From assembly GCA_022925895.1 (NCBI GenBank), contig JAKSYS010000033.1:62001-126000 (forward strand): a DNA stretch of 64,000 nucleotides. The letters are read 5' to 3'. Within the stretch, counting starts at the first letter, position 1; each line of letters opens with the position of its first letter. Source of the DNA: Fragilaria crotonensis. Taxonomy: Eukaryota; Bacillariophyta; Fragilariophyceae; Fragilariales; Fragilariaceae. The notes beneath the pieces were generated by a model. The model searched no databases. It saw only the letters and a program-made list of their open reading frames with translations, and was not told the DNA's origin. This document shows positions 3,992-64,000 of the stretch, in pieces. The position numbers and the translations under genes are program-made.

Positions 3992-5106
3992 TACCACATA
4001 AAAAGTGCCTGGAGCCGTTACTTTCACCCCGTTGTGGACTAAAGATATCTTGCTCAAAAATGCTTTGATTTCAATTCTGTTTTTTTACAAATGCTGTGTG
4101 ATGTTCTTGGCTACCCAGAACATTAATCATTCTTTTTCCAGAGCAAGAATTGATGAAGTTGTCGCTGAACTTGTGACGCTCATTTTAGCAGTTATCAGCT
4201 CAGGCACTTCATTTAAATGTATCCATACCTTAAGACATTTTAGGCATCGGTTGAGATTTTTCACCCCATTCAACTATGATTTTTGTACTTGTTTTCTACT
4301 GCTACAGAGTTTTCCCTATTGGTGGTACGCGATCAATGGGGTGAAAATCCGAGGGGGTGAAAAATTGCGAACCCTCAACTTCCAGTGATGTTTACAACAC
4401 CAGTTTCTAATCGGTTTGTTCACCACTCCAGAAGACTTCGTTGTATTGCATATCAGAGATCAAAACGGCCATAGCAAGTGCCATTGATTTCTTGAAATTG
4501 AGTGACTTATTACCACATACAAAGTGCCTGGAGCCGTTTCGACCGCTGGAGCCGTTAAACGGGGTTTTTTCGACTCCTCCTACAAAGAAGTCAGTCAATT
4601 TCAAGAATTCAATGGACATAAGCACAGCCGAGTTGATCTCTGATATGCAATACAGCAATGTCATCTAGAGCGGTTAACGAACCGATTAGTAGACTGGGGT
4701 TGTGAATGCAACTGCATGTTGAGGGTCGACAATTTTTCACCCCTTCGGGTTTTCACCTCATTGATCGCGTACCACCAGGGAAAACTCTGTAGCAGTAAAA
4801 ACCTAGTACGAGAAATCATGGTCGAATGGGGTGAAAAATCTCAACCGATGCCTAAAAAATGTCTTAAGGTACGTATACATTTAAATGAAGTGCCTGGAGC
4901 CGATAAATGCAAAAATGAGCTTCGCAAGTTCAGCAACAACTTTGTCAATTCTTGCTTCAGTACAAGAATGATTAATGCACTGGATAGTCAAGAACATTGA
5001 ACACTATTTGTAAGCAAACAGACTTGAAATCAAAGCATTTTTGAGCGTGAGATCTTTAGTCCACAACGGGGTTAAAATAACGGCTCCAGGCACTTTTTAT
5101 GTGGTA
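3992..5106. mobile_element. Non-autonomous TIR element, inverted dimer (foldback)
   Basis: Both ends carry the same terminal inverted repeat. The left end reads TACCACATAAAAAGTGCCTG and continues GAGCCGTTA; the right end is its reverse complement, finishing ATGTGGTA at 5106. The outer TA on each side is a likely TA target duplication. The whole 1.1 kb folds back: for example AAATCAAAGCATTTTTGAGC near 5028 mirrors 4040-4065, and the block with TTTAAATG at about 4210 mirrors about 4880. A second terminus (TACCACATACAAAGTGCCTG) begins at 4513. So 4513-5106 looks like one complete element of about 0.6 kb, and 3992-4512 is an inverted copy lacking its own far terminus. No coding capacity; the short mirrored reading frames near 4.4-4.7 kb are products of the palindrome. 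It is related in sequence and layout to the elements at 37.0 kb and 38.4 kb. Confidence 0.85.
4513..5106 (+). repeat. Complete unit inside the inverted dimer
   Basis: A left terminus (TACCACATACAAAG, then TGCCTGGAGCCGTTT) is followed within 80 bp by a CTCCTCCTACAAAGAAGTCA block. An internal TGCCTGGAGCCG copy lies about 210 bp from the right end, and the right terminus ends at 5106. The same order (terminus, CTCTACA/CTCCTACA block, internal terminus copy, CAGTA-x-AGAATGATT block, terminus) is found at 37.0 kb and at the ends of the 6.8-kb element. Confidence 0.7.
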
Positions 5107-26652: not shown

Positions 26653-27894
26653 TCATCCATGCGATATTGCTGCATCCACAGGCGGCAAAGTCGAACGCAA
26701 CAGCAGAATTAGCATTTCGCGAATTTCAGCCACTCGCACATTGTTTTCTTCTATTTGAACCCGATGTTCCGCCATTCGTGCCTCATTCGCTGCCATGTAC
26801 GCCTTGTGCTCGGCCATGCGTGCCTCGTTCGCTGCCATGCGCGCCTCATTCTCTTCCATGCGTGCCCTGTGCTCCGCCAGTAAGGCCTTGTGCTGTTCCA
26901 CGAGCGCCCTGTGCTCGGCCAATTGGGATTTATCGTATCCGGGGGTTGCTGCCGTTGAGAGCGAAGATATATCATCGTCATCGTCGTCAGTCTCATCAGT
27001 ATCACCATGATCATGATCAGCAACAGGAGGCACAGAGTTGTTCGCCATTCTAGTAGGCGGCGGGACTAATGCTGGGGAGCCCGCAGCAGAAAGCTTCAAG
27101 TTTTGATACTTGATGGCATTCTCAAATGCAGTGAGACACGAATATCTCATTTTGAAGGAGACAAAGGTCTTTTGGCCTCGGAATGCCGTTCTGAGTAGCT
27201 TTCCCATGTTGTGATTGTCGACAGATTGGACTTCGACTGCATAAGCCGTTGTGGAGATGACACGATCGGGGTGACGAACAGTGGGAGTGGACAGGACAAG
27301 ACGGAACTGGGGGATGTCCTTGCGAGAGATTTTAGGGACTTGTTGCAGAATCTTTTGAATCAAGACTTTGGTTGCTTCTTCGGGTTCGTAGTGCCGATAG
27401 TCAAGGCCAACGATGAATCCAAGCTGCTGGCAGTCCCACACAGTCTCGCCCCAGTAGTGTTCATGAAGGTAGCAATTGTGTTCTTTTAAAATCTGAAACG
27501 CTCGAGGAATTCGCTTGATCATATCGATGCTTTCCTGAGTCCGGATACGGTGAACCAGATAGAATGTGGTCCTTTGTTCGTTATCGCGCCTGTCTATCTT
27601 TTTATGAATGTGAAAGTGTTGCTTATAGAGGTTTGGATTGCTCCACTTCACTGTATCCACCGTGGACATCCTTCGATTCTTGTTGCTGATCAGCTCTACA
27701 GTATCACCGAGTGCATCTTGTACTGCTTTCATCCAGAGTACGTGGACTTTGAACGGTGACAACGATACAGGACCTGCCTTTTCCGCGAAACGACGACAAT
27801 CGTTGAATTGGAACTTGATTGTTCTCTCGATCCGATCAGGAACGTTACATGCAGTCATCTCCACTCTTCCAACAGGAGGATTCAGATTGGACAT
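26653..27894 (-). CDS. Unknown protein with C-terminal Met/Ala/Glu-rich coiled-coil repeats
   Basis: 413 aa from the ATG at 27894. The N-terminal 270 residues look like a globular domain (SPFKVHVLWMKAVQDALG, TTFYLVHRIRTQESIDMIKR, CYLHEHYWGETVWDCQQLGF) that I associate, from memory, with a multi-copy family of unknown function in diatoms. An acidic linker (DTDETDDDDDD) follows. Residues about 335-395 are built from a repeated seven-residue unit (AEHRARM, EENEARM, AANEARM, AEHKAYM, AANEARM, AEHRVQI), an almost perfect heptad series expected to form a coiled coil. At DNA level the repeat is a 21-bp tandem, prone to expansion. No catalytic motif was recognised. A mobile-element origin is possible but not shown. 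Confidence 0.65.
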   Translation of the reverse strand: MSNLNPPVGRVEMTACNVPDRIERTIKFQFNDCRRFAEKAGPVSLSPFKVHVLWMKAVQDALGDTVELISNKNRRMSTVDTVKWSNPNLYKQHFHIHKKIDRRDNEQRTTFYLVHRIRTQESIDMIKRIPRAFQILKEHNCYLHEHYWGETVWDCQQLGFIVGLDYRHYEPEEATKVLIQKILQQVPKISRKDIPQFRLVLSTPTVRHPDRVISTTAYAVEVQSVDNHNMGKLLRTAFRGQKTFVSFKMRYSCLTAFENAIKYQNLKLSAAGSPALVPPPTRMANNSVPPVADHDHGDTDETDDDDDDISSLSTAATPGYDKSQLAEHRALVEQHKALLAEHRARMEENEARMAANEARMAEHKAYMAANEARMAEHRVQIEENNVRVAEIREMLILLLRSTLPPVDAAISHG

Positions 27895-37003: not shown

Positions 37004-37746
37004 TACCAGTTAAAAATGGCTTTGAGCCCTTAAAAAAAATTGAGCCACTAAATGGTGTAATTTTCACGACCTCTACAAAAAAGGTGCTCAATATCATTCT
37101 AATTACCGCTTCACATACGGCAATGACGTTCCTTGCCATGTGCACCTACTTTCCTTTGCAGTGCAAAACAGGCATTTTGGAAGCCGCGGTTTTGCTGAAC
37201 GCACTGGATGTTGGTACCTCGGAGATTTTGCACATCTCAAATTTTCCACCATTGAGCCGGGCCACCAATTTTATGTAGACATTCCATGCAGTATTTTTTT
37301 TTAATCATTGCGACAAATATAGATAGCTGCTTAACTGTAGTTCCCACGCCATGTACTTCACGTGATGCATTATATTAGGTTTTGGCGTGTTACCAAATTG
37401 CGACGTAGAATCAGCGTAGCAGTACAAAGAAATTGGATGACGACGATGATAAGATTATGTTGAATGGGGTAAAAAAACTCAACGGACAAATATTGAAAAA
37501 TATTCAGGTATATATATAAACCAGTAAATTGCTTAGAGCCATTAAACCGAGAACGACGCTTCTAAAAGCATCAATATCTTCATGAATTCTTTGTCCAGTA
37601 TAGAAATGATTCAACCATGATGAAGCATAAAGCATGATCGACATGTGTGGCACTTGAAGTTGATTGCATTGCGTCAGATTTTCATTGAGAACTTTTTAGT
37701 CCAACATGGTGTTTTTTAATGACTCAAAGCCATTTTTAACTGGTAG
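37004..37746. mobile_element. Non-autonomous TIR element, about 0.74 kb
   Basis: Left end TACCAGTTAAAAATGGCTTT, then GAGCCCTTAA. Right end is the reverse complement, CATTTTTAACTGGTA, ending at 37746. Flanking TA on both sides fits a 2-bp target duplication. Inside are an inverted-terminus copy near 37531 (TGCTTAGAGCCATTAA), the CACGACCTCTACAAAA block near 37068 and a CAGTATAGAAATGATT block near 37597. All match in order the element at 4.0-5.1 kb and the ends of the 6.8-kb transposon. No open reading frame of note. It lies only 677 bp from the large element. Confidence 0.8.
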
Positions 37747-38422: not shown

Positions 38423-38453
38423 CCACCTAAACACTACTTAGAACCGATAATTT
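38423..38453 (+). repeat. Left 31-bp terminal inverted repeat
   Basis: Starts CCACCTAAACACTACTTAG; 29 of 31 bases match the reverse complement of 45162-45192. It is followed by TTGCTTAGAACAAATAACG and a CCTCCTACATGAAAGTT block also seen in the small elements. Confidence 0.85.
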
Positions 38454-38695
38454 TGCTTAGAACAAATAACGCGCTAATATCCGTTCCTCCTACATGAAAG
38501 TTAATCAATTTGTTGTTTTCAAATAAAGTTCGTAGGAGACTCTTGTTCCTTGTCGGAAAGTGTGTTTCCCTGGAAGGTCCGGCAATCCGGGCGAAGTCGT
38601 GAATAAAGGAACTATGCGCGCCCGCCGGGAGGGAAACAAGTTCCGATCGATGTCTGGCTGGCGCAAAAATGGATGTGCCGGCGTGGTGGTGACAC

Positions 38696-38976
38696 GGCTT
38701 ACGTCTGTAAAAAAATTGCTTACAGCGAAAATTTTTTTGCTTACGGAATGAATTGCTTACGGAATTTGCAAATTTATTGTAAGCAGAAATTTGCTTACAA
38801 AATTTGCTTACTGTAAGATTAAATTGCTTACGGGTACTGTCTTTTCTACGTAAAAACATACCAATTTTCAAACACCTAAATAAAATTTACTTACAGCAAA
38901 TTTGCTTACAGAAGAAATTTGCTTACAAAATTTGCTTACCGGCATAATTTGCTTACTGTCAAGAAAATTTGCTTAC
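38696..38976 (+). repeat. Subterminal array of GCTTAC motifs
   Basis: About a dozen copies of GCTTAC, mostly as AATTTGCTTAC, plus one reverse copy (GTAAGC), occur in 280 bp with irregular spacing. The phrase AATTTGCTTACAAAATTTGC occurs twice. The array lies 270-550 bp inside the left TIR and has no counterpart at the right end. Such subterminal short repeats are commonly transposase-binding sites in large DNA transposons; that role here is inference. Confidence 0.75.
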
Positions 38977-39357
38977 GATGAAGCAACCTTGCCGGCTCGG
39001 ATGGATCATTACAATTGCTAAAATTCTCGCATCGTGCAAATCGGAGCAAGGCTGGCGCGCAAACTAAGCTGCCCCAAACGGTACAAGTACAGCTGGAACG
39101 TGCATGGGCCGGACCTTCGTCGCTCAATATTTCACACCGTATTTTGGCACTTCAGGTCAAAAGTTGCTCAAAATATTTGCACATCGAGGTGGGCCTCCCA
39201 TTTAATGCTCTCCGTTGTGACGCTGTGTATTTTTTATGCTTGCTATTTTTATAGAAACGCCTGCCACATGATATAGGCCACGAATTTCTAGTGGTCCAGG
39301 GTTGGTACAAGCCACGCGTAAAAAGCAGCGTACCAGTAGTCCCAAGGTCCAAGAATA

Positions 39358-39394
39358 CACTAGAGACCATTCGGGCTCTGGAGCTTGGCCCGAT
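39358..39394 (+). repeat. Internal 37-bp inverted repeat, left copy
   Basis: Starts CACTAGAGACCATTCGG and ends GCTTGGCCCGAT. It is a perfect reverse complement of 44849-44885, 5.5 kb away. The copies lie just outside the two transposon genes. Confidence 0.88.
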
Positions 39395-39766
39395 CCCGCC
39401 ACTTCAGCGTTATAAGACCGTTATCACTTTTTTGTTTGTACGAGACAAAAACTATTCTTTACTTCAGTGTCATTAACGGTTTTGAGCTCAGCAAAAGTGG
39501 GATTTTCTCAACCAATTCCCAAAACAACGATGAGATACTGCACATTCGCACTCATGGGGGTGTGTGGTGTCACGAGATGCACGGGCTCGTCGTTATTCGG
39601 AATTTTGGAGAAGTCGGTTTGGTATCCAGAATTGACATTCCACGTGGAAACAAAGTAGAAATGTACTAATTCCCACGTACACTGCACGCACAAAAACAAA
39701 TTCTGGATCGTCAAGTTGGATCCCAGCTGCTTGTTTTCATACGCAGAAACGCAACCTTTGCATGCG

Positions 39767-42700
39767 ATGTCGATCAAGCAACATGACCTCTACAAACGAG
39801 GCAGGAGTTATCCTGTCACGTGTCTTTCCTTCGGGAAACATCGTAAGGAAGAATATCCGGATCATTTTTTTTGTCACGGGTGTGATCTGTTCGAAGATGC
39901 CGTTGAAAATCAAATACAGCGGGCTAATCGGCAACAAAAGAAGTACTTGTGCACGGGTGGTCACTCTAACCTGGCGTACCCAACAACATTCAAACGCCAG
40001 TATCGACCGAAGAATACAGCGAGAAAGCAGCAGCAACAAGACAAGAACAAGGATGATTTGTTTGATTATACTGTTGATGCCTCACCACCAAGTAAGAGCC
40101 CTACCAAGAAGAAGCAACGACGAGAACTCATGACAGATGACAACGCTGCAAGAGATCAGAGTGACTCAGAAGTTCAAGAAGGGGGTTACTACGCGCAGGA
40201 TTCTTGTGCTACTAATACAAGTGCTGCACACCTGTTTTGTACAGGCATTGACAACAATGAGACACAAGTCAGCAAAATTGAACGTGGCATACAGAGAACG
40301 AATGTGCTTCTGTCTCAATCGACAATGGCGACCTGTGTCACTCCAGCAGCCCATGAATTTAATTCGTTCAAGGAACGTGAGTTGATGGAAAACATCAATA
40401 TGCTTAAGGCACAGAATGCTCTGCTTAGTAAGCAACTCCAAGACCTCGACAATTGCCATCTAAACCTTTCACGTACAATGGAGACTCTCACATCGGAAAT
40501 GCAACAGCTCAAGTTCCAATCAAGAACTAGTTTGAGTAGTGACCCTGAAAGCCTTGAGTGTAATGATAATGGCAGTGATGGGAAACATCGGGAGGACTCT
40601 GCGATGAGAAAACATCGCGTACAAATAGAGAATGCAAAGCTTTCTCGTGAACTTGCACTCCGTATTCAGGAATTTGTCTCAAGTTCAAACCTTGCGGACC
40701 GACGCAAGTTTCCTACGAGTCGACTTGCAAAGATTGTCGTAGGTAGCATTCTTTCATTTGAATGGACTCATTCGGAAATTGCCAACTGTTCTTTGATGCA
40801 AGCGACGCATAGCAACTCATTGGTCATACTCCTGTCAACATTTTTGAATGTCAAGATGAAGCAATGTGGCGACAAGAGTAAAGCAGCGTTACTAGTGGAT
40901 TGCATGTGGGACAACAACTTTCTTGATGGAGAAGTTAAAGCATGTATGATAAGTAGAGTTCGTTCTTACCTTCGCAATCGGGTCTTCACCCCATGGAAGA
41001 TCTTAAAGGCAATGGACATTGCAGGATTTAACTTAAGTCTGGCAGGTATTGAAGTCTTGCGAGCCGTCGAAGTTCAGGGGAACAAGTACATACGAGGCAT
41101 ACTCCCAAGCAAATCAACAATATTAAGAACTGCAAGAAAGCTTGAAGCAGCTGCTGATATGTTTTGCCCCTTTAGAATGATAGGAGCCATGTATCAAGAA
41201 GGCGAAGAACAAGACGAAGAAGGTAATGGGAACAATGAAATCATCGGAGAAGGCTTTGAGTTCGATCCAGTAAAGGTCACAAGAACACTCTTTGAGGCAT
41301 TTGGTTTACTCAATGTAGCCAAGCAACGACCAGTTGAGTTGGGACTTACATCCGATGGTGCTCAACTCACCAACACAATCTTGCATGTTGCTGCAGGATT
41401 GAAATTCAATGATATGGCATTGTGCAATCCATTAACAAAGTGCCCACTATTACTCCACGAACCTGACTCTCTAGTGCAGAGTCGCAATCTTTGTTTTCCA
41501 CTCCGAATAGTTATTGGAAAAGACAGCAAGAAAACTCTGGAGGGGTTTCGATCTCTGTATAACATGTTTAATGGAGGTGAAATATCGAGAGCATTGCAAT
41601 GTCACTCCTTTAAGATGTCCTTCCCGGGAGACATGAAACTGCAATGGGGAGCACTTGATGATGGCGGTGCAGCAAAAGTGAAAGAAAAGTTTTGCTACAT
41701 TTGCCCTTGTCGATCAGCAACTCTGCATGTTCCACAAGACAAGTCACGGTGTCCTTTGTGTAAGGACAAAACAACAGCAAACGGCGAGCCGCAGTATTGT
41801 TATCACTATCCATTTGTCACCGATCCCACTGTCAGACAAGAGCTTGTTGAAGAGTTAGGTGTTCTGACTTCGCTTCGCGATGTCATAAATGATGCCAACA
41901 GGAATAATGCTGCTTTACATCACGATAATGATACGTCAGAACAAAAGATGTACGTGCGTCGGTCTGGTGAAGTGATGATGGAAGGCGATGTGATGGATAT
42001 CGACTATCAACCAACTGAACCAAACGACAGAGCCGTTTGGTCTCGTCTCATTACCGATGAACTTGCACATCGTGGTATGGCAGTCATGGGGACTCTGAGT
42101 AATCGCCAGCAGAGACTCCGAGAGCGACTAGTGAATGAGCAAAGAGCTCAAGACATAGCTCGCATGCTGGCTGAAAGCGAGCCCAAGGACCAGGCCATGT
42201 ATCTTGTACTCCAAGCCGTTGTTTGCATACTTCACTTGGAGAATAGAGTCGGACTTAAATCAATCGAGAGCATCCTCCGTTCAGGAATTACAAATGCACG
42301 AAAAGGGAATTTAGAATGGATCGTTGCAAAAGGTGTCATAACACGTCAGGAAAAGTATGTTGGCCGCATCACAAACATAATTCAAACGCGAATTCTAGGT
42401 TCTACGATGGCACCTTCGCAGTGGCGATTCCCACTGACAGAGGAAGGAAATATGGGAACACTGTCGATGGACAACAATAGAACTCGTGCAGTCATGAACT
42501 CTATTGAACTATTGATTGAAGTGTCATTTCCCAATTCGGATGAGAACAAATGTAACTTGCTTCGATGCTTTCCACGATACAGAGCTGCAATGTCCATTCT
42601 CCGGAAAGATACCAACGCTACATTGGAAGAGATAACTGTTTTCCAGGATCACATCGATGCCTGGTTTTGTGATTGGGTTAAAGTTTATGGAAAAGAAGGA

Positions 42701-43132
42701 TGCACTAACTATACCCACATGCTCTCGTCATCTCACGTAATGAGATATATGCAGGAGTGGAAGTGCTTGCATCGCTTCTCGCAGCAGGGATGGGAAGCTT
42801 TGAATGCACTAATTAAAGCCTATTTCTTTCGTCGCACAAATCGAGGTGGCTTATCCAAGAATGCTACGAAGAAGAGCAAGCTCTTGGGTATTGCTCGATG
42901 GTTGCAGAGACGAATCATGTGGTACAGTGGAAATGGTGATTCTCTTTTTTCAACAGACGAGGATGATGATGATAGCTCCTATGATGATAACGATGATAAC
43001 AGTGAGAGTTCAAGTTCTGATCTTGCATCTGACGGTGACTTGGAAAACGAATCCGGCAGCAGTGACTTAGAATGTGAATCTGGCGATAGCGACTTGGAAT
43101 CTGAACCTAACAGCGACGACGACGTTGCTTGA
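39767..43132 (+). CDS. Large transposase-like protein with zinc-binding insert
   Basis: 1,121 aa from the ATG at 39767; the open frame extends 17 codons further but starts with TTG. Order: N-terminal Cys/His patch (FFCHGCDLFEDAV), Lys/Gln/Asp-rich linker, coiled coil (about 200-250, LMENINMLKAQNALLSKQLQ), then a core. Candidate acidic triad of an RNase H-like fold: Asp530 (LTSDGAQLTN), Asp622 (SFPGDMKLQW) and Glu1010 (SQQGWEALNALIK). Between the second and third lies a Cys-rich insert (FCYICPCRS ... RCPLCKD ... YCYHY, about 643-685), likely a zinc ribbon. The end (1065-1121) is very acidic. The phrases GGAAKVKEKFCYIC, YSQQGW-like FSQQGWEALN and FRRTNRGG recall large uncharacterised proteins repeated in diatoms and other stramenopiles. 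I cannot place it in a named superfamily; the triad is a proposal. Location between TIRs supports a transposase role. Confidence 0.75.
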   Translation: MSIKQHDLYKRGRSYPVTCLSFGKHRKEEYPDHFFCHGCDLFEDAVENQIQRANRQQKKYLCTGGHSNLAYPTTFKRQYRPKNTARKQQQQDKNKDDLFDYTVDASPPSKSPTKKKQRRELMTDDNAARDQSDSEVQEGGYYAQDSCATNTSAAHLFCTGIDNNETQVSKIERGIQRTNVLLSQSTMATCVTPAAHEFNSFKERELMENINMLKAQNALLSKQLQDLDNCHLNLSRTMETLTSEMQQLKFQSRTSLSSDPESLECNDNGSDGKHREDSAMRKHRVQIENAKLSRELALRIQEFVSSSNLADRRKFPTSRLAKIVVGSILSFEWTHSEIANCSLMQATHSNSLVILLSTFLNVKMKQCGDKSKAALLVDCMWDNNFLDGEVKACMISRVRSYLRNRVFTPWKILKAMDIAGFNLSLAGIEVLRAVEVQGNKYIRGILPSKSTILRTARKLEAAADMFCPFRMIGAMYQEGEEQDEEGNGNNEIIGEGFEFDPVKVTRTLFEAFGLLNVAKQRPVELGLTSDGAQLTNTILHVAAGLKFNDMALCNPLTKCPLLLHEPDSLVQSRNLCFPLRIVIGKDSKKTLEGFRSLYNMFNGGEISRALQCHSFKMSFPGDMKLQWGALDDGGAAKVKEKFCYICPCRSATLHVPQDKSRCPLCKDKTTANGEPQYCYHYPFVTDPTVRQELVEELGVLTSLRDVINDANRNNAALHHDNDTSEQKMYVRRSGEVMMEGDVMDIDYQPTEPNDRAVWSRLITDELAHRGMAVMGTLSNRQQRLRERLVNEQRAQDIARMLAESEPKDQAMYLVLQAVVCILHLENRVGLKSIESILRSGITNARKGNLEWIVAKGVITRQEKYVGRITNIIQTRILGSTMAPSQWRFPLTEEGNMGTLSMDNNRTRAVMNSIELLIEVSFPNSDENKCNLLRCFPRYRAAMSILRKDTNATLEEITVFQDHIDAWFCDWVKVYGKEGCTNYTHMLSSSHVMRYMQEWKCLHRFSQQGWEALNALIKAYFFRRTNRGGLSKNATKKSKLLGIARWLQRRIMWYSGNGDSLFSTDEDDDDSSYDDNDDNSESSSSDLASDGDLENESGSSDLECESGDSDLESEPNSDDDVA

Positions 43133-43189
43133 CGGTCGCAACAAATGAATTGCACTTCTTTTGGTACTAGTATTACGTATTACGAATTC

Positions 43190-44640
43190 CTATTCAAGCA
43201 TTTCTTGAATTTTCCGATGAACCGTCTCGACGTCAGTGTAGACAACAACCTCCTCCGATGCATTTACTTTTGTGGTCATCCTAGGATTGTGAATTTTGTA
43301 AACCTTCTTTGCATGTATCTCAGTACTTCGGACTGAGTGAACACGCATCACATACATGTCGTCGATGAACTCCATTCCAGGAGCAATGTCAATGGGGATT
43401 TCATACGATTCGGCACTCGTATTGATACCTACGACACCATTGCTCTTTGGTTTATTGATACCAACGCCAGAAGCAACACCAGCATCAGCAAGGAACGGGA
43501 TTGATTTGCTTGTCACAACAACCTTTCGATACCGTAATGTAATTTGTAACGTGCCCTCCAATGAATCGTACGACAAGTCAATTCCATCTTCAGTTACTCC
43601 GAATCTCTGAAAAGACAAACAATCAGTATTGTCATCAATTTCCCGTCCTTCAGAAGAACACAACACAACATTTAGCACGTCATTCACACTCAATAGGAAA
43701 CGACCATCGCTATACTTCGGCCGCTTTTTGCGGACCCCAAAGCCGGCCATGTTGCCGAAGAGTGCCCGAAAGACTTGTAGCTTGTTGACGGTGTCGAAAC
43801 GCAACACATCAAGGTAACCAGTGTGCCGACATGAATTGTAGACAAGTCCCCAGGAAAGGAAGCTGCGGGGTTGGCTGTATTTGATGGTGATGCTGTCCAT
43901 TCCATTAGTGGCCATCGCGTTCTTGATAAAGTGCCAAGCACAACTAGGAACCTGCAACTTCGTGTTCTTCACTGCAAAGTCGCCCTGTGACTGTGCAACA
44001 CGACAAAGGACTCGTTGCATTTCTCGCCGAATATGCCGGATGGAGTTAAAAACAAGCTCGCAGTAATCCACTGACCAAACCTTTGAAAACTCTCGAGTCG
44101 TCCAGGAAATGGTGGACATGTGTGTCGTGGGATGATGGAAACTTCGCCCTTTTCTGTGATGCGATACTTTGCAACATAAAAGTTACACATCCCTTGACAA
44201 TCATCAAAGAAGCCATCTTCCTCCATAGCAACAAATGCCAGGCCAACGATGTAATTTGACGGTATCCACTGAATTTTGTCTAGCTGAACAATTCTTTCCC
44301 ATCTATCGAAGCTCTCATTGTCCGCTGGAAAATGACTATCAGGGAACAACTGACGGTCCTTGAAGACGTTGACTTTAGCATACTGAAGTGGACTTTCATT
44401 TTCAAACTGACCTGCTGGTGATGTGAGATGAATGAGTGCGTGATTATCAGGAACCAAATCCAAAGATGATACCACTTCAACAATTCGACCAACAGCATCC
44501 GGCGCTGCCTCGCCAGCACTGTATCTTATAAACGATCCTGCTGTTACCGAGATTTTCAGGGATGGTATGTACAGAGTGTTCTTGAATGATGTGGGCGTCA
44601 GGGATTCCCAAGACGATCGCTGCATCTTTGTCGTCATCAT
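43190..44640 (-). CDS. BAH-like protein of the transposon; two overlapping frames
   Basis: Start ATG at 44640. The first frame (to 43969) contains a BAH-like module: GRIVEVVSSLDLVPDNHALI, then YAKVNVFKDRQLF, then RIVQLDKIQWIPSNYIVGLA. The second frame (44119-43190) starts inside it and continues as a protein-like sequence (VDYCELVFNSIRHIRREMQR, SFLSWGLVYNSCRHTGYLDV) to a Glu-rich end. The pieces overlap by about 150 bp in different frames. Either a short intron is removed (for example GTCAGT donor at about 44071 with acceptor TTTGCAG at about 43963, which keeps phase) or one base is lost or gained. BAH domains bind chromatin or nucleosomes, so the product could tether or target the transposase. 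No transposase motif is present here. The gene converges with the transposase gene and lies between the same inverted repeats, so it is probably part of the element. Confidence 0.6.
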
Positions 44641-44848
44641 ACAACTACTGCCTAACGATGGGAATGCTGCTCCATAGATCTTCTCAACTCAAATGCACTC
44701 AGTCTAGAAAATTGCGCGCCGACGTAGTAGGATTGACATGTCCGGCGCCTTTCTTAAACAATTTTTTTATATGTTTCCCCTAGTAGATGGAGGGTGCATT
44801 GCAGAGAAGACGTTAAATTTAGGGTCAAAATTGTGCTCATAACCAGAA

Positions 44849-44885
44849 ATCGGGCCAAGCTCCAGAGCCCGAATGGTCTCTAGTG
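44849..44885 (-). repeat. Internal 37-bp inverted repeat, right copy
   Basis: Perfect partner of 39358-39394. The perfect match, against 29 of 31 in the outer TIR, suggests either selection for binding or a younger inner element. Confidence 0.88.
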
Positions 44886-45161
44886 AGGCATGATTTTGGG
44901 CGAACGTGTGAAAAAAATTACGCGCACACACTATAAATTGTTTTTCATGCATGTATGAATTTTAATGTTTCGCTTAGAACCAATAATCCCAAAACGAGGC
45001 AATCAAATCGTTTGATACCTCGATGAATATCGGCACCCAGTACAAGATTGATTCAATTGTAGGATAAACAAAAACGCTAAGTAGAATTCTTGACAGAATG
45101 TTGATGGGGTGTGGGGTGTGAAGCTTTTCGGAACAAATAAATTGAGTCGAAACATGCGTGT

Positions 45162-45192
45162 AAATTATTGGTTCTAAGTAGTTTTTAGGTGG
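45162..45192 (-). repeat. Right 31-bp terminal inverted repeat
   Basis: Ends GTAGTTTTTAGGTGG. It lies 21 bases before the start codon of the secreted cysteine-rich protein. A second copy of the motif in opposite orientation (GCTTAGAACCAATAAT) sits near 44972, so the last 220 bp are themselves a small inverted-repeat unit. Confidence 0.85.
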
Positions 45193-46486: not shown

Positions 46487-46800
46487 ACTTGAGACTATCA
46501 CCGGAGATGATACTCTAATCGTAGAAAATAGTACGTAGTACCGTAGGAAAATTACTGTAGGAAGGGTTCACACAAAGTACGTTCTGAGAAATTATAAGCT
46601 ACAGTAAAATTCGGCACTCAATCGTATGAACGACAAACTCGTCGAACGTGTCAAATGGCATTTGACATTTCGGGTAGTTCGTACGAAATTAGTTAGAGAC
46701 CGGACAGTACAGCGTATCAAGTTTCACATTTCGATGGATGACCTCACGGTAGCACAGTACAACGATGGCATCGCAGTCCAGTGCAGCGTAGGTTTTAATT
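46487..46800 (-). repeat. 3' LTR (element orientation)
   Basis: 314 bp, nearly identical to 53323-53636. On the plus strand it starts ACTTGAGACTATCACC and ends AGGTTTTAATT. Ends do not show the usual TG..CA. Confidence 0.92.
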
Positions 46801-46910
46801 CTCCCTTTCATCCATAAATGCTGAAACAAAACACAAAACGTCAGTTAAAATAGATACGAGTCAAACGAGGGTTACAGTTTGAACAAGAGACACAAGGGTT
46901 TGGGTGGCCG

Positions 46911-49900
46911 TTACCATCCTTGGACCAGTTTGCGGACGCGTTCGAAACTCTCACGATTTAGTCCTTTCGTAAGAAAATCCGCCCACTGCTCTTGAGTGTC
47001 GACCTTCACGATGGCGACCGTGCCATCACGCACGTGCTGCCAGAAGAAGTGCCACTTCACCTGGAAGTACTTCGTGCGGTTGGTAATGCGTTGGTTTACG
47101 GCAAGAAGAAGGGCGCCATTGTTGTCCTCGAAGACTTGACACTTGATCGTCGACGTGAACGTGCGAGGAAGTTTGATGCCGGAGGCGACTTCCTGGAGCA
47201 TGGAACGGAGAGGCAAGAGCGTACGCATCGCGGAGCTGAGAGCGGAGTATTCGGCTTCGAGCGTGGACAAGGAGATCTCACTTTGGAGGTGAGATTTCCA
47301 CAAAATGGGACATCCGCCGAGCGTGATGATGTACCCAGTTCGAGACTTCGCGGAGGTCGGAGAACGATCGGGATCACGGCCATGGAGACCGGCGAAGTCG
47401 GCGTCGACATAACAGTCGAGATCCAGCGTGCCGGTGGGCTTGACGATCATGCCCATGTCGCTCGTGCGATGCAAGTAGCGAACGAGAGTCTTGACGGCGG
47501 ACGCGTGGCTTCGTTTCGGGCTGTGGCAGAACCTGGCGACCTGGCTGACGGCGAACGCGATGTCGGGGCGAGTGTTTGTGGACAATAGAGGAGCATGCCG
47601 ACAATTGAACGGTAGCTCCACGTTTCCGTCATGGGAGGTCCATCGGGGTCGATTCCAAGTGCGGCCTGAGCGGCTGGCGTCCAATTGTAATTGCTGTCGG
47701 ACATGCCAGTCGCTTCCTTGATCTTTGAATGAGACCCTTCTGAGTGAGGGTCAGGGTGCCATTCGTTGCATCGCGAGTGAAATTGATGCCGAGGAAGTCG
47801 GTGAACGTGCTCGCGAGTAAAACTTAAGTTTTCGCTTCCAGGTTGGCGAAGAGCTTGTCGAGGTCGCTTTGGTCGCGATAGGCGATACCTAAGTCATCAA
47901 CGTATAGAACAACCATAATTGTGTCTTTGTAAAGTAGGCACGGGTCGTTCGCGCAGGCTTTAAAGCCTTCCTCGCGCAAGGCCTCCGATAGATGCTGGTA
48001 CCAAAGTCTTGGCGCCACACTCAAGCCATAAAGGCTTTTCAGGAGTCGCAGGCACGTGGCGTGGCCTTTCGGAGAGTGGAATCCACGAGGCAAATGGATC
48101 CAGACTGGATCCGAAAGCGGGGCTTGAACGAACGCGCTGCTGAAGTCGATGGTGCAAGTTTTCCAGTTCAAAGTTAGAGAAAGAACTAGGAACAACCGTA
48201 CAGTACTCCAAGCCACGACTGGGGCAAAAGTCTCCTGAACGTTTTCTTGGAGATCGCCTCTTACACAGTAGCGTGCCTTGTACTTACTAATAGTACCATC
48301 GGGAGTACGTTTGCGACGAAACACCCAAGTACCGGGCAAAATTCGAGTCTTGGCTTCCGTGATCGGCACTTCGATCCATGTACCGTTTTTCTGCAAACTT
48401 TGAATTTCGTCGTTTGCAGCCTTCAGCCATTTTTCGATGTTGTCATGATCCGCCATCGCTTCGCTGAAGCTCAGAGTGTCAGGATCGCTGACACTCGCCT
48501 TATACGACGAGGGAGGTGGCGAAAGACACTCGGCGACCTCATTGTAAAGCCATTCGAGGGAGGTTCCATCGAATTCGGCGATGTAACCATGTCCTTGCTG
48601 TCCGTCGTATCCGAGGCGGACAGGTGCCGAACGATTGCGAGTGGAGCGACGAGGTTCGTGTTTAACGGGTGTGCTCTTTGCTTTTGTTGCTTTCGGGACG
48701 ATTGGTTGCTCGCTCACTTTGTTGTCGCTTTCGTTTGCAGGACGAATTGGAGTCGGCGGCGACTGGAAGAGTTTGACTGGAGTTGGAGTCGGAAGTTGCG
48801 GCGCAGTCGGCGCAGGCGGTTGCGGAGTCACCTCCCTTGGAGTCAACAACGGAGTGGCAGGGGGAGGAGGCACAACGACTGGTGGTGGCGTGGCGACTTG
48901 CTCCCTTGGAGGCGGCAACGGAGTTGACAGCGGAGGCGGAGCGACTGGAAGAACCTGAGGAGGAGTCGCGTTGTCGAGAGCGGTCGCGACACGTTGCATC
49001 TGGGAAAGGAGTTCGTTGGCTTGTTCGTAGTCGGTCGACTCAACAATCAACCTTTCTTCGTCTTCATCGTCGAGGACGTATTGAAACGTAGAGTCTTGGA
49101 ACATTCGTTTCCAGCTGTCGTCGTTGAAGTTCGGAAGGTCGTCGGCGGAAGCGGGAACAGTTGCGAACCAATCGTCGAAGACGATATGAAACTGTGGGGT
49201 GATGTACCCCGTTTGTGGATTGAGAACGAGAGGAACCGAGCTGGCGTGCTTGTCGGAGAAACCGAGGTTAACCGTGCGAGTCGAACGAGGAGTCCAGCGC
49301 GGCAATTTCTTGCCGTCCGAAATCATTTTGTCGAGGACGTAAACTGGACATCCCCAAACGTGAACGTCCATCAATTTCTTTTGTTCCCAGCGAGTCTTTG
49401 TGAAGAACGTCATGGGAAAGGCCAGTTCGTGGGTCAGGCATGTGGTTCACTAGGAACACAGCATGCTTGACGGCGAGGGGCCAAAGTGTGGGATCGGCAA
49501 CGTCCGGCCAATGGATGGCCGAATGCAACATCATGGTCCTTGCAATGGCCATGATTGTACGAATGTTGCGTTCGGCGATTCCATTGTGATGGTGAGCGCC
49601 GACGCCAGCGAATCGGATGACTTGTTGGAACTCGGCGAGGTTGCGAGAGAACTCGGCGGACGTGAACGTTTTCGAGTTGTCGGCGAGATACTCTTGCGGC
49701 GTCACTCCTGTGTTGCGACACATTCGCTCGAAACTCTCTTTGCCTTGAGAGTCTCGTGCGAGTTCAAGCTGACTTGGTGCTCGACAAAATGTAACCGGAG
49801 GCGTGGTCGACGAAGATGCAACCACCGGTATACATGTCGTCGAGTTTCGTTTTTCCAGCGGAGGTAGTAGACGTCCACGAGTGCTGCAAATAAAATGATC

Positions 49901-51549
49901 GACCGAAATGCGTTGGCCTGGGAGGAGATTGTCGTTTTAAGAGCGTGCGCTCTATCTTTGACAACAGACGAAGGCGTCGTGCCAGGAATTGGACGTCGAT
50001 GTTGTTTGCCATATTGGCAGGCGGCGCATTTTGGGAACGAGGTAAGTCGACATGCGGCGGTTTGTAATCGGCGACTTTCTTCCGTTTTGCTGACGACGCC
50101 GGAACGCAGGATGAACTGGACCTTCTTGAAGCCGACGTGACCCAAACGATAGTGCCAACGAAGCAATTCTTTCTCTGCTTCATTGAGGTTGAGGTTTCGT
50201 TCGTGAACGGTATTCACAATCGAAACGAGAGCGTCGGCGGCCTTGAAAGGATCGGTTGCGTTGTACGCTTCCGACGTTGGGAGATTGTTCTGCGGGTTGA
50301 CGTTTGCAGTGACGGGTCCTCGGTTGACGTCGTTCGGGACGCCGCTGAGCGTCAAACGATTCGGTTCGATGGTGATCGTTTCGTCAGGGTAAGTCTGGAG
50401 GAGACTGGACGTCGAGAGGAGTCGGACTTTGATGTTGGGAACATGAAACGCGGGGACCTTGAGGAGTCGAAGATTTCCAAGCTGATCGTGGACAGCCCAA
50501 GTGACTTCGCCTTGGCCTTTAATTTGTAGACCCTTGGCGATGCCTTTTAGCTGCGTGATCGTTCCGGGCGACGTGACGGGGCCTTCGAAATCGGAGATGT
50601 CGGGCGTGATCGAAATGCTTGCGCCCGAGTCCCAAATGATGGGGCTCGTGTTTGCTTTGGGTCCGAGGGCTTCTCGCATACGAGCGGGAGCCTGAGAGCC
50701 ATTCGAAGCGGCGTGGAATGGCACGCCAGTGAACGTGTGAGAGGATTTTGTTGGCGGCGGCACGTTGGTGAAACGTGAGCGGAGCGATCGCAAACGGGTC
50801 GGGCGAGTTGGCGGGTGCCACAGGGCAATACTTCGCGGTTCGTGGCGACGAACGGGGCGTTTGGAGCACCAGGAAGGACACGAACGCTTGTTTTTGTATC
50901 CCTCCCTTTGGCCTGTGGTAGGCGGCAACGGAGCAGGGCGACGAGAATTGCGAAGCTTGTCGGCTCGACGTTGGAGACGGAGTGCGCGTTCTTTGAGAGT
51001 CGCGAAATGAAGGAAGTCGTCGCGTTGAGCGAGCGTGGGAGGTCGCGATGCGACGTATCCTCGTTGTCGGAGACGAAGAGGATAGGAACGATGCAGCTTG
51101 TTAGCGCGAATACCCGAATTGAAGCGTGGCGGAGCGAACGACTTCTTGAGGAGTCGCGAGAAACGACGACGTTGATTGCGAGTGAACGGAGGCGAGGAGG
51201 GAGCCGTCGAGGCAACGGGAGGTTGCTTTAGGAGCGTTGACGGGAAGACCGAGAGAAAGAGAAGAATGACCCAAACGGTAGGAGCGAACGCGAGCGTTGG
51301 GTGGCGGAGCAAAACTTGGTGAAGATTGTTGGCGACCCAAGCCAAAATGGTCGACCATGGGATGGCGGATGCAAGATAGATAGCCAAAGTAACCAAATTA
51401 GGAACAATGGCACAGATAGCGAGGGAAAGAGCGAAAAGTAGCCATGGGTTCGCACCTCGGATGAGGTTTAAGAGCGAACGAGGAGGAGACGTGACGGTCG
51501 GTTTGACTGGGAAGTCAAGCAACCAAACGGAGGGATCCGGCGCCAACAT
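46911..51549 (-). mobile_element. pol-like region of the copia element
   Basis: Encodes, in element order, a protease-type WDSGAS motif, an integrase region, a reverse transcriptase with the YVDDLG box and a copia-type RNase H (EAEYSAL). Typical of Ty1/copia. Interrupted overall, as noted for the whole element. Confidence 0.88.
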
Positions 51550-51672
51550 GCTGAGATTTGCCCTTGGCGATGGTGCCGGAGCGGGAGGACGACGTTCTCC
51601 ACCGGTGTGAGTGGCGGTCGTGCGTGACGGTCCAACGACGACACTTTTCGCACCAGTTGAAGGTTTTATCCT

Positions 51673-52995
51673 TCACTTTCTTGGAATTGCTAGTTCCGGG
51701 AAGTGGTGGAATTGTGCGCCAGGATTTATGTTTGTTGGTGCGATCCTGGCGGGACCCAGAGGGGAGGACGATCCGGACTTACGATTGAGCTCCGGACACT
51801 TGTTCGCCCAATGACCGGGTTTTCCACACTTGTGGCAATTGCCCTTCTTCGTCGTCGTTTCGGTCCCGGATGCCTGGGACTGAATCAACGTAAGTACCTC
51901 GGCTCGGGAGATACCTGCGGGGGCAGTTGCGACATTACCAAACGTCGCAGACGGAGCTCGGACATCAGGTGCATGACTCGCTGGAGGCCATTCCTTTCTG
52001 TCAAATTGCGTACGGTACGCGTCTTCAGCTTGGCGACAAATATCTTGGAACGTCAATTTCTCGGCGACCATGTGAGCATGGGCGCCTGACTTTTCCTTGT
52101 ACCCAATGTCAAGGAGCGCCTGATCAAGTCGCTGCTTCGTCGAACGGAGAGGAAAGCGGAAGTCTTCGTTTCCGGCTCCTCCGGCCAAAAGGAAAGTCTT
52201 GAGCATCGTGAGCGTGAGGTTGTGGTCGTACTGACCTGCCGTCGTGAGCTCACGTGCGTCCTTGCGATAATCAGCGGCGAGGGCTTCGAGGTTTTCGCCG
52301 GCGTACTGGGACGGGTGGCGAGCCTTGATCGCGGCCTTCAGGTCTTCAAAGCGCTCGATCGACGTCGACTGGATCGTCTTGATCAGCTGAAGCCAGACGA
52401 CGTGAAACGAGTCGTCGTCGTCCATTTTCTCTTTGATCTTGCTCATGAGAGCGGGATCGAGAGACGAGAGAAGGAACTTGGTGGCGGCGAGGTCGTTCGA
52501 CTTGTCATACTTATCGTAACGAAGAATCTGCTGGGAGCTGAGAGTCTTTGCTGTCGCGACGGTGTAGCGGGAGTGGCTCCTGACAACGTTTGTCATCACA
52601 GAGGAGCTTTCGGGATCGGGGAGATAAGCGATGGTATCCATCCCACAATCGACGAGATGGTCCCAAACGGCGTTCTGGAAGTCTACGAGACTGCTCGCTT
52701 GGGTAAATAGGGTCGTCATGCCGGTACGACGAAAGTTGTACCCCTTTTGTGAGGCGGAGGCATGGACAGGGCGGAGTTGATTTGGTGACGTGATGTCGTC
52801 GGCGGCGCTCGGATCGAGGCCGACCCAACCGGGAGCTGGCTTGCCGCCAGTCCAAGCGGACCAATCGTCCCTGGAAAGGGAGACAATGTTGCCCATAATG
52901 GGCTTATCGGGCCTATCAGAGGCGACGATAGGGTCGGAGACAGGTGGCGTCGGAGACGCGGTGACGGGGTCGGAAGTTGGAGTCGGAGACGCCAT
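51673..52995 (-). mobile_element. gag-like region of the copia element
   Basis: About 440 aa with a capsid-like helical region and a CCHC zinc knuckle (CHKCGKPGHWANKC) near the end. Open throughout. Confidence 0.88.
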
Positions 52996-53322
52996 CTCGG
53001 AGAGATCAGAAGGAATAGCGAACTTGGAAAGGTCTTAGAAGAGCAAAGCACGGCGTGCTTGTAGATAAGATAGGTAGCCTAGTTGGTAACTTAGGCGCTC
53101 GGAGAGACTTGCTTGTAGGTTGGAAACCGTAGAGTAGAAGATAGTCAACGGAGTTGACTCAGAGCTGCAGCGTAGGCGATTGCGGAGCAATCGGGGAGTA
53201 GATCCTTGGAAAGGATCAGCCTGGGTGTCCTTGGAAAGGAAACAATGAATTCCTATAGAGAGGAATTGGCTTGCCTGGAAGGAAGCGTGAGGGGGTTAGC
53301 CTATAGATTGGGCAAAATAACC

Positions 53323-53636
53323 ACTTGAGACTATCACCGGAGATGATACTCTAATCGTAGAAAATAGTACGTAGTACCGTAGGAAAATTACTGTAGGAAG
53401 GGTTCACACAAAGTACGTTCTGAGAAATTAAAAGCTACAGTAAAATTCGGCACTCAATCGTATGAACGACAAACTCGTCGAACGTGTCAAATGGCATTTG
53501 ACATTTCGGGTAGTTCGTACGAAATTAGTTAGAGACCGGACAGTACAGCGTATCAAGTTTCACATTTCGATGGATGACCTCACGGTAGCACAGTACAACG
53601 ATGGCATCGCAGTCCAGTGCAGCGTAGGTTTTAATT
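53323..53636 (-). repeat. 5' LTR (element orientation)
   Basis: 314 bp, matching 46487-46800 with one base difference seen. It ends 211 bp upstream of the CWC22 start codon. Confidence 0.92.
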
Positions 53637-62990: not shown

Positions 62991-64000
62991 ATGGCTTTAC
63001 TTCTTGCTGAAGAGCACGAAAAAATGATACGGAATGATAGCACCGACGTTGTAAGTTTTCAAGAGTACACAGAAGACGCAATCACCTTCCATGTAAGCCG
63101 ACATGGCCATTTGGAAGTTTTTTGCTGCGAGTTGTTGAGCGGAATGGATTATGTGAACATTTCTGATAAGGATGATGAAACGGCCCTCATCTGGGCAAGC
63201 CGCGGTTGTCGTTTAGACGTCATTCGTGTGTTATTGAAACACAATTTGGTTGACTTGAACGTCGGTGATAACAATGGCGAAACAGCCCTGATTTGGGCAA
63301 GCCGTTATGGCCATATGGATGTCGTTCGTGAATTATTGAAGCACGACATGGTCGACATAAACATCGCCAGTGAAGGTGGTGACACGGCCCTAATCACGGC
63401 AAGCTTTGAGGGCGAATGGGTAGTTGTTTTGGAGTTGTTAAAACACAATGTGATTGATGTGAACATCGCTAATGAATGTGGTCATACAGCCCTTACCACA
63501 GCAAGCGAATTCGGACATTTCGAAGTCGTTGCTGTGTTATTGAATCACAGCACGATCAACGTTAACATCGCTAATGGAGAAGGCAAGACTGCCCTCATCT
63601 TAGCTTGCGAAGAAGGCAGCTTGGACGTCGTTAGGGAGTTATTGAAGCACAAAATGGTTGATGTGAAGATTGCTGATGAAAATGGTGATACGGCTCTTAT
63701 CACGGCAAGCCGTGAGGGCTATTTTGAAGTCGTTCGAGAGTTGTTGAAACACGACATGATCGATGCGAACATCGCTAATACATGTGGCGATACGGCCCTT
63801 ATAATGGCAAGCAAATTCGGGCATTTCGAAGTCGTTCATGAGTTATTGAAGCACACCATGATCAACGTGAATTGCGCTAATGGTCACGGCAAGACTGCCC
63901 TCATCTTGGCCAGCGAAGATGGCAATTCTGTAGTCGTTCAGGAGTTATTGAAGCACAAAATGGTCGATGTGAACGTTGCTCATCAATTTGGTGAAACGGC
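62991..64000 (+). CDS. Ankyrin-repeat protein, 3' end beyond the window
   Basis: The ATG at 62991 opens a frame that runs without a stop to the last base (336 complete codons). After a 35-residue leader come at least nine ankyrin repeats, each 34 residues (102 bp), of the form GDTALITASREGYFEVVREL followed by LKH-x-M-x-DVNIAN. The usual ankyrin TPLHLA is replaced by TALI-x-AS. Repeats 3-5 and 6-8 match as triplets: in each set the order is DTALITAS, xTAL-x-x-AS-FGHFEVV, GKTALILA. This shows a duplication of a three-repeat block (306 bp). Likely a protein-interaction surface; partner unknown. Whether other domains follow cannot be seen. No signal peptide. Confidence 0.88.
   Translation, partial: MALLLAEEHEKMIRNDSTDVVSFQEYTEDAITFHVSRHGHLEVFCCELLSGMDYVNISDKDDETALIWASRGCRLDVIRVLLKHNLVDLNVGDNNGETALIWASRYGHMDVVRELLKHDMVDINIASEGGDTALITASFEGEWVVVLELLKHNVIDVNIANECGHTALTTASEFGHFEVVAVLLNHSTINVNIANGEGKTALILACEEGSLDVVRELLKHKMVDVKIADENGDTALITASREGYFEVVRELLKHDMIDANIANTCGDTALIMASKFGHFEVVHELLKHTMINVNCANGHGKTALILASEDGNSVVVQELLKHKMVDVNVAHQFGET

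Follow-up and report, generated by a model that had tools for sequence, protein, structure and literature searches.

An autonomous-looking, two-gene cut-and-paste transposon related to the CMCT (CACTA/EnSpm-Mirage-Chapaev-Transib) clade appears to be nested in an older non-autonomous element at 38423-45192 of the window, the whole 64,000-nucleotide stretch of Fragilaria crotonensis DNA that was analysed; a probability of roughly 55% is given to this reading. That the locus carries a DNA transposon of some kind is held to be very probable, and a divergent member of a known transposon kind with an accessory gene added is the likely case. In the original prediction, 38423-45192 had been taken as the boundaries of a single element; a perfect CACTAG-starting repeat pair was overlooked there, both genes lie within it, and 39358-44885 is the likelier extent. 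The features of the locus are listed in table 1.

Table 1. Coordinates of features at the locus, numbered from the first letter of the window.
Feature	Position	Strand	Remarks
Left outer inverted repeat	38423-38453	+	matches 45162-45192 at 29/31
Outer motif CTTAGAACCAATAAT (15 bases), two copies	38437-38470	+	starts 38437 and 38456; 1 and 2 mismatches
Array of AATTTGCTTAC-like repeats, left outer arm	38713-38976	+	direct repeats D4 and D5
Left inner terminal inverted repeat	39358-39394	+	starts CACTAG; 37/37 complementary to 44849-44885
Inner two-gene transposon, putative unit of 5,528 bp	39358-44885	.	perfect inner repeats flank both genes
Putative DDE transposase, 1,121 aa	39767-43132	+	open frame 39716-43132, ATG at 39767
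Convergent accessory gene	43190-44640	-	no family match; two frames, joined via intron or frame change
Possible 116-nt intron, GTAACT...TTTGGTCAG	44071-44186	-	1 of 51 GT-AG candidates, chosen by eye
Right inner terminal inverted repeat	44849-44885	-	37/37 complementary to 39358-39394
Outer motif CTTAGAACCAATAAT, exact copy	44973-44987	+	motif search of window
Right outer inverted repeat	45162-45192	-	matches 38423-38453 at 29/31
Outer motif CTTAGAACCAATAAT, fourth copy, exact	45164-45178	-	inside right outer repeat; motif search

The inner repeats are separated by 5,454 nt, and the unit bounded by them reads CACTAG...CTAGTG, that is CAC...GTG, at its ends. The two genes converge between them. 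The transposase is read from the forward strand, with 372 bp between the left repeat and its ATG; the second gene is read from the reverse strand, and 208 bp separate its ATG from the right repeat. According to the available part of a 2025 study of fungal transposons (PMC12730594), most members of CMCT have CA..TG termini, and in the accessible text of PMC7204232, CAC is the start of Transib, RSS and RAG-like transposon ends. Such termini are present in the inner pair; the outer pair begins with CCACC instead. The inner 37-bp pair is more likely than the outer 31-bp pair to represent the ends of the element.

The outer repeats on which the earlier boundaries had been placed do exist, and their agreement (94% identity; blastn E values of 1.9e-7 and 5.8e-8 within the 64-kb window) is far above chance. 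The outer arms, 38454-39357 and 44886-45161, have sequence of their own. With up to two mismatches allowed, CTTAGAACCAATAAT was found at four sites in the window, every one of them within the outer repeats or the arms next to them, and at three mismatches two further sites were added, at 37532 outside the element and at 42392 within the transposase gene. AATTTGCTTAC was matched 12 times in the window at no more than one mismatch, 10 of these matches falling within the array of the left arm. Because copies of CTTAGAACCAATAAT with at most two mismatches are confined to the outer arms and outer repeats, two end systems coexist at the locus, and one element inside another is the simplest reading of them.

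Nesting is unproven, because neither repeat pair has a recognisable target-site duplication. The inner pair is flanked by ...AAGAATA and AGGCATG... and the outer pair by ...CTAATG and TACACA...; with slips of up to six bases, no duplication above chance was obtained for either. The best match at the inner pair was CTAG (4 bp), a palindrome that belongs to the repeat itself, and the best at the outer pair was CAC (3 bp); with equal slip freedom, matches of at least 4 bp arise at 134 of 300 pairs of positions drawn at random from the window. In the available part of PMC12730594, duplications of 2-5 bp are given for CMCT elements, and neither these nor the 5-bp duplication of RAG1L-RAG2L elements was seen at the locus. 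The absence of a duplication could be explained by its loss, by recombination between copies or by small deletions. No second copy was found in the 64 kb by BLAST with both proteins, the outer arms and the inner ends, which gave weak short matches only.

The 1,121-residue frame is present as originally predicted, and D530, D622 and E1010 are located where they had been placed. The pair C643-Y-I-C646 starts 21 residues after D622 and is followed by more cysteines (C648, C662, C665 and C678); E1010, the last residue of the putative triad, lies in QGWEALN, 20 residues past the second histidine of H984-x5-H990. A candidate zinc finger, C36xxC39...C62xxxH66, was picked by eye near the start of the protein. 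In the CMCT motif, as described in the available part of PMC12730594, C(2)C and H(3-4)H occur between the second D and the last E; C(2)C is found here in that interval, whereas the histidine spacing is H(5)H and departs from the literal motif. Pfam searches returned nothing credible for the transposase, with two unrelated sub-threshold matches for the whole protein and zero matches for the core segments; PHROGs gave no match, and sequences of solved structures (PDB) gave nothing credible. A single-sequence structure model had a mean pLDDT of 35.4, with 747 of 748 residues below 50, and was unusable for judging an RNase H fold; the PDB fold search with this model of unusable quality yielded no match at E ≤0.001 and 118 at E ≤10. 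The repeats and the long frame support the earlier view of a large, unfamiliar transposase of a DNA transposon, and no known family was matched.

RAG1 is a member of the CMCT clade, and the transposase was compared with the mouse protein. The D-C and H-E distances are 21 and 20 residues in the transposase versus 19 and 20 in mouse RAG1, of which H937, H942 and E962 are taken here to be the counterparts of the aligned histidines and glutamate, and the glutamate block reads QGWEALN in the one and EGNESGN in the other, both conforming to GxExxN. The strict layout D..D-x17-22-CxxC..H-x3-5-H-x17-22-GxExxN, the ranges of which (H-x3-5-H included) were fixed only after the protein had been inspected, occurred once when residues 401-1080 were shuffled 20,000 times and in none of 43 control frames (at least 400 aa; from 15 loci and the remainder of the window). 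The layout D-C2C-HH-E was reached in 126 of 20,000 shuffles, and in 100 of 20,000 when a preceding D was added without GxExxN; four aspartates, D530 among them, fit the first-D place. Against the window around the RAG1 catalytic glutamate, E1010 ranked first of 76 glutamates at all three window sizes (tied at one of them), and against the corresponding RAG1 windows D530 ranked 19th and 32nd of 76, D622 31st and 47th of 76, and C643 8th of 31. The C-terminal segment scored 42 against mouse RAG1 (shuffles, 26.2 ± 5.0; 20 of 2,000 reached 42); the segment round D622 was not distinct (872 of 2,000 shuffles as good) and the whole core was not significant (78 of 500). A gap-tolerant alignment of the transposase core with RAG1 was better than 500 of 500 shuffles, yet it was set aside because E1010 was not aligned with the RAG1 glutamate. 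These comparisons lend moderate support to the view of the transposase as a divergent relative of CMCT; the main ground is that the glutamate block and the CACTAG ends agree in direction. CACTA had been excluded by motif in the original prediction; that exclusion was unwarranted, because the inner ends start with CACTAG and, in its C(2)C, H..H and GxExxN, the protein approaches the layout of the wider CMCT clade.

Relatives were sought by pattern scans. Three scans of viral contigs matched 1, 6 and 11 stretches, none of which was confirmed by tblastn. Three other viral-contig scans gave 14, 1 and 2 loci, the spacing used in the scan with 1 locus having been modelled in part on related proteins, and a scan of genome contigs gave 1 locus with a variant pattern, in which TAY stood where the protein has F (TTY). 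Among the first 15 loci, no relative was encoded at a meaningful E value (best E, 4.0), and at all 18 loci, nothing was obtained at E ≤1 for the transposase or for the second protein. Phages (searched as protein) and plasmids (searched as DNA) gave no match.

Other repeats and mobile-element traces were recorded elsewhere in the window. A retrotransposon at 46487-53622 (reverse strand) has at its ends the repeats 46487-46786 and 53323-53622, which are at least 300 nt long and nearly identical, their initial 108 nt being free of mismatches; judged by its frames it is presumably Copia-like, and Pfam gave no family match. Two inverted-repeat elements were located at 3992-5106, which is almost fully palindromic, and at 37004-37745. 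Their ends follow a common pattern, TACCA..TAAAAA..GC.T.GAGCC.TT (75%), which suggests that they are small non-autonomous elements related to each other; neither has a clear target duplication. Direct repeats with a 102-base period occupy 63110-63919, as six overlapping 300-nt copies, five of which are 63-71% identical to the reference copy. The open frame 16244-17137 matches RNase H weakly in Pfam (E 0.051, short of the cut-off) and is perhaps the end of a retroelement, and the 413-aa frame 26653-27894, with a sub-threshold Pfam match only (E 0.071) and a repetitive C-terminal part, may by its style be a mobile-element protein. Pfam also identified an armadillo-repeat gene and another whose product has MIF4G and MA3 domains, both in keeping with a eukaryote.

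Two other readings concern the extent of the element and the family of its transposase. Read as before, 38423-38453 and 45162-45192 would be the ends of one composite 6.8-kb element, and the 37-bp repeats would be internal or would belong to an insertion that moves with it. The outer repeats, matching at 29 of 31 positions, are far above chance, copies of CTTAGAACCAATAAT gather at the outer ends, and the inner unit is without a duplication that would mark it as an insertion; precedent is offered by the giant DNA transposons of Ectocarpus, in which, in the accessible text of PMC12477816, foreign insertions are fixed among copies and continued movement is inferred by the authors. The inner repeats, however, are longer and perfect, have a recognised CAC terminus and lie tightly round the genes, and the outer pair likewise lacks a duplication, so that the composite element is considered rather unlikely. 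Assignment of the transposase to a different DDE superfamily, named or unnamed, with the RAG1-like layout arising by convergence or chance, is also unlikely, though it would suit a large transposase that has no credible family match, whose likeness to RAG1 is confined to the last catalytic block and whose H(5)H deviates from the published motif; the CAC...GTG ends and the spacing of C2, H2 and E favour CMCT. For KDZ (Kyakuja, Dileera, Zisupton) in particular, no match was obtained in Pfam, which presumably contains a KDZ model. A very large transposase is shared with KDZ, as is the occurrence of accessory genes (PMC12477816, available part), whereas the 8-bp target-site duplication made by Zisupton (PMC12730594, available part) was not seen here.

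Presence of the opposing gene has been borne out, whereas its description as one frame has not, since it consists of two overlapping reverse-strand frames, 43969-44640 and 43190-44119, each open throughout. Codon preference, learned from the transposase, follows one frame to ~44115 and the other from ~44070-44025; in the latter frame the signal is weak, with positive values in 12 of 19 windows. Among the 51 GT-AG candidates, defined by a suitable length class and a long frame left after splicing, removal of 44186-44071 would give a single 444-aa protein, and the ends of this intron look good by eye; the stretch removed has a good codon signal, which counts against the intron, and for that reason a frameshift or assembly error is as likely as an intron. 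A second gene decayed by frameshift, leaving the transposase as the only functional gene, is a tentative reading of some weight: two frames are required and codon preference switches between them, but both are open along their entire length, the 116-nt intron would restore one protein, and an assembly error is a possible alternative cause. The proposal that the second gene encodes a BAH chromatin reader steering insertion through nucleosomes is very unlikely. By eye, the hydrophobic blocks of the 44080-44640 frame come in a BAH-like order, and the likeness to EBS, SHORT LIFE and polybromo-1 is limited to that order; the single-sequence model is nearly all beta, though unusable (187 of 187 residues with pLDDT <50). 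Pfam gave no BAH match and none to kelch or PHD up to E 1, BAH was absent from the matches among solved-structure sequences, and PHROGs gave a single sub-threshold match of unknown function (E 0.082). The fold search of the PDB with the unusable model returned nothing at E ≤0.001 and 708 matches at E ≤10, with no BAH fold among the best 50 of the 708. Against a profile of four BAH domains the second gene scored -0.6 bits, not above shuffles (718 of 4,000 reached that score or better); so small a profile has little power, and the result therefore fails to support BAH without excluding it. The 116-nt intron, if real, would moreover cut away the end of the supposed domain. The term 'BAH domain' was absent among the literature matches listed, a scope lying mostly outside subscription journals and outside Repbase, and 'BAH' does not occur in the available parts of PMC12730594 and PMC12477816. 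Nucleosome-directed insertion is accordingly speculation, because the BAH assignment is unsupported in Pfam, in solved-structure sequences and by the BAH profile.

Two-gene DNA transposons are not unusual, En/Spm and MuDR being examples. Under the preferred reading of a CMCT relative nested in an older element, the transposase would bind the 37-bp CACTAG ends, a zinc site formed by the C-C and H-H pairs would brace an RNase H-type D-D-E active site, as in RAG1, and the inner element would be excised and then pasted elsewhere by way of that site. The convergent second protein may assist or regulate transposition, and as a guess it could be a DNA- or chromatin-binding helper; the older outer element would have ends unrelated to those of the inner unit. 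Should the CMCT placing hold, a very divergent two-gene member, from a microalga, would join the parent clade of RAG1, and its convergent partner would inform how such transposases gain cofactors. A RAG-type two-gene transposon outside animals, in which a RAG1/CMCT-like transposase is combined, with genes converging as in RAG1L-RAG2L, with an unrelated partner in the role of RAG2 (cofactor or chromatin reader), is highly improbable; if true, the pairing of transposase and cofactor would have arisen more than once. The main use of the analysis at present is corrective, in that the likely element is the 5.5-kb CACTAG-ended unit and the idea of a chromatin reader is unsupported.

Among known systems, CMCT elements have H(3-4)H where the inner unit has H(5)H, and the unit further differs from them in its additional cysteines and in showing neither a 2-5 bp duplication nor a profile match; it shares with them the CAC...GTG ends, C(2)C past the second D and two paired histidines ahead of the last E. 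Overall similarity of the transposase to mouse RAG1 is not significant. From RAG1L-RAG2L (ProtoRAG-type) and Transib elements the unit is set apart by a partner with no kelch or PHD match and by the lack of a 5-bp duplication; shared with them are the ends starting with CAC and an H..H and GxExxN block that aligns with mouse RAG1, and, as in the RAG1L-RAG2L elements described in the accessible text of PMC7204232, which have convergent genes and CAC ends, the two genes are in convergent orientation.
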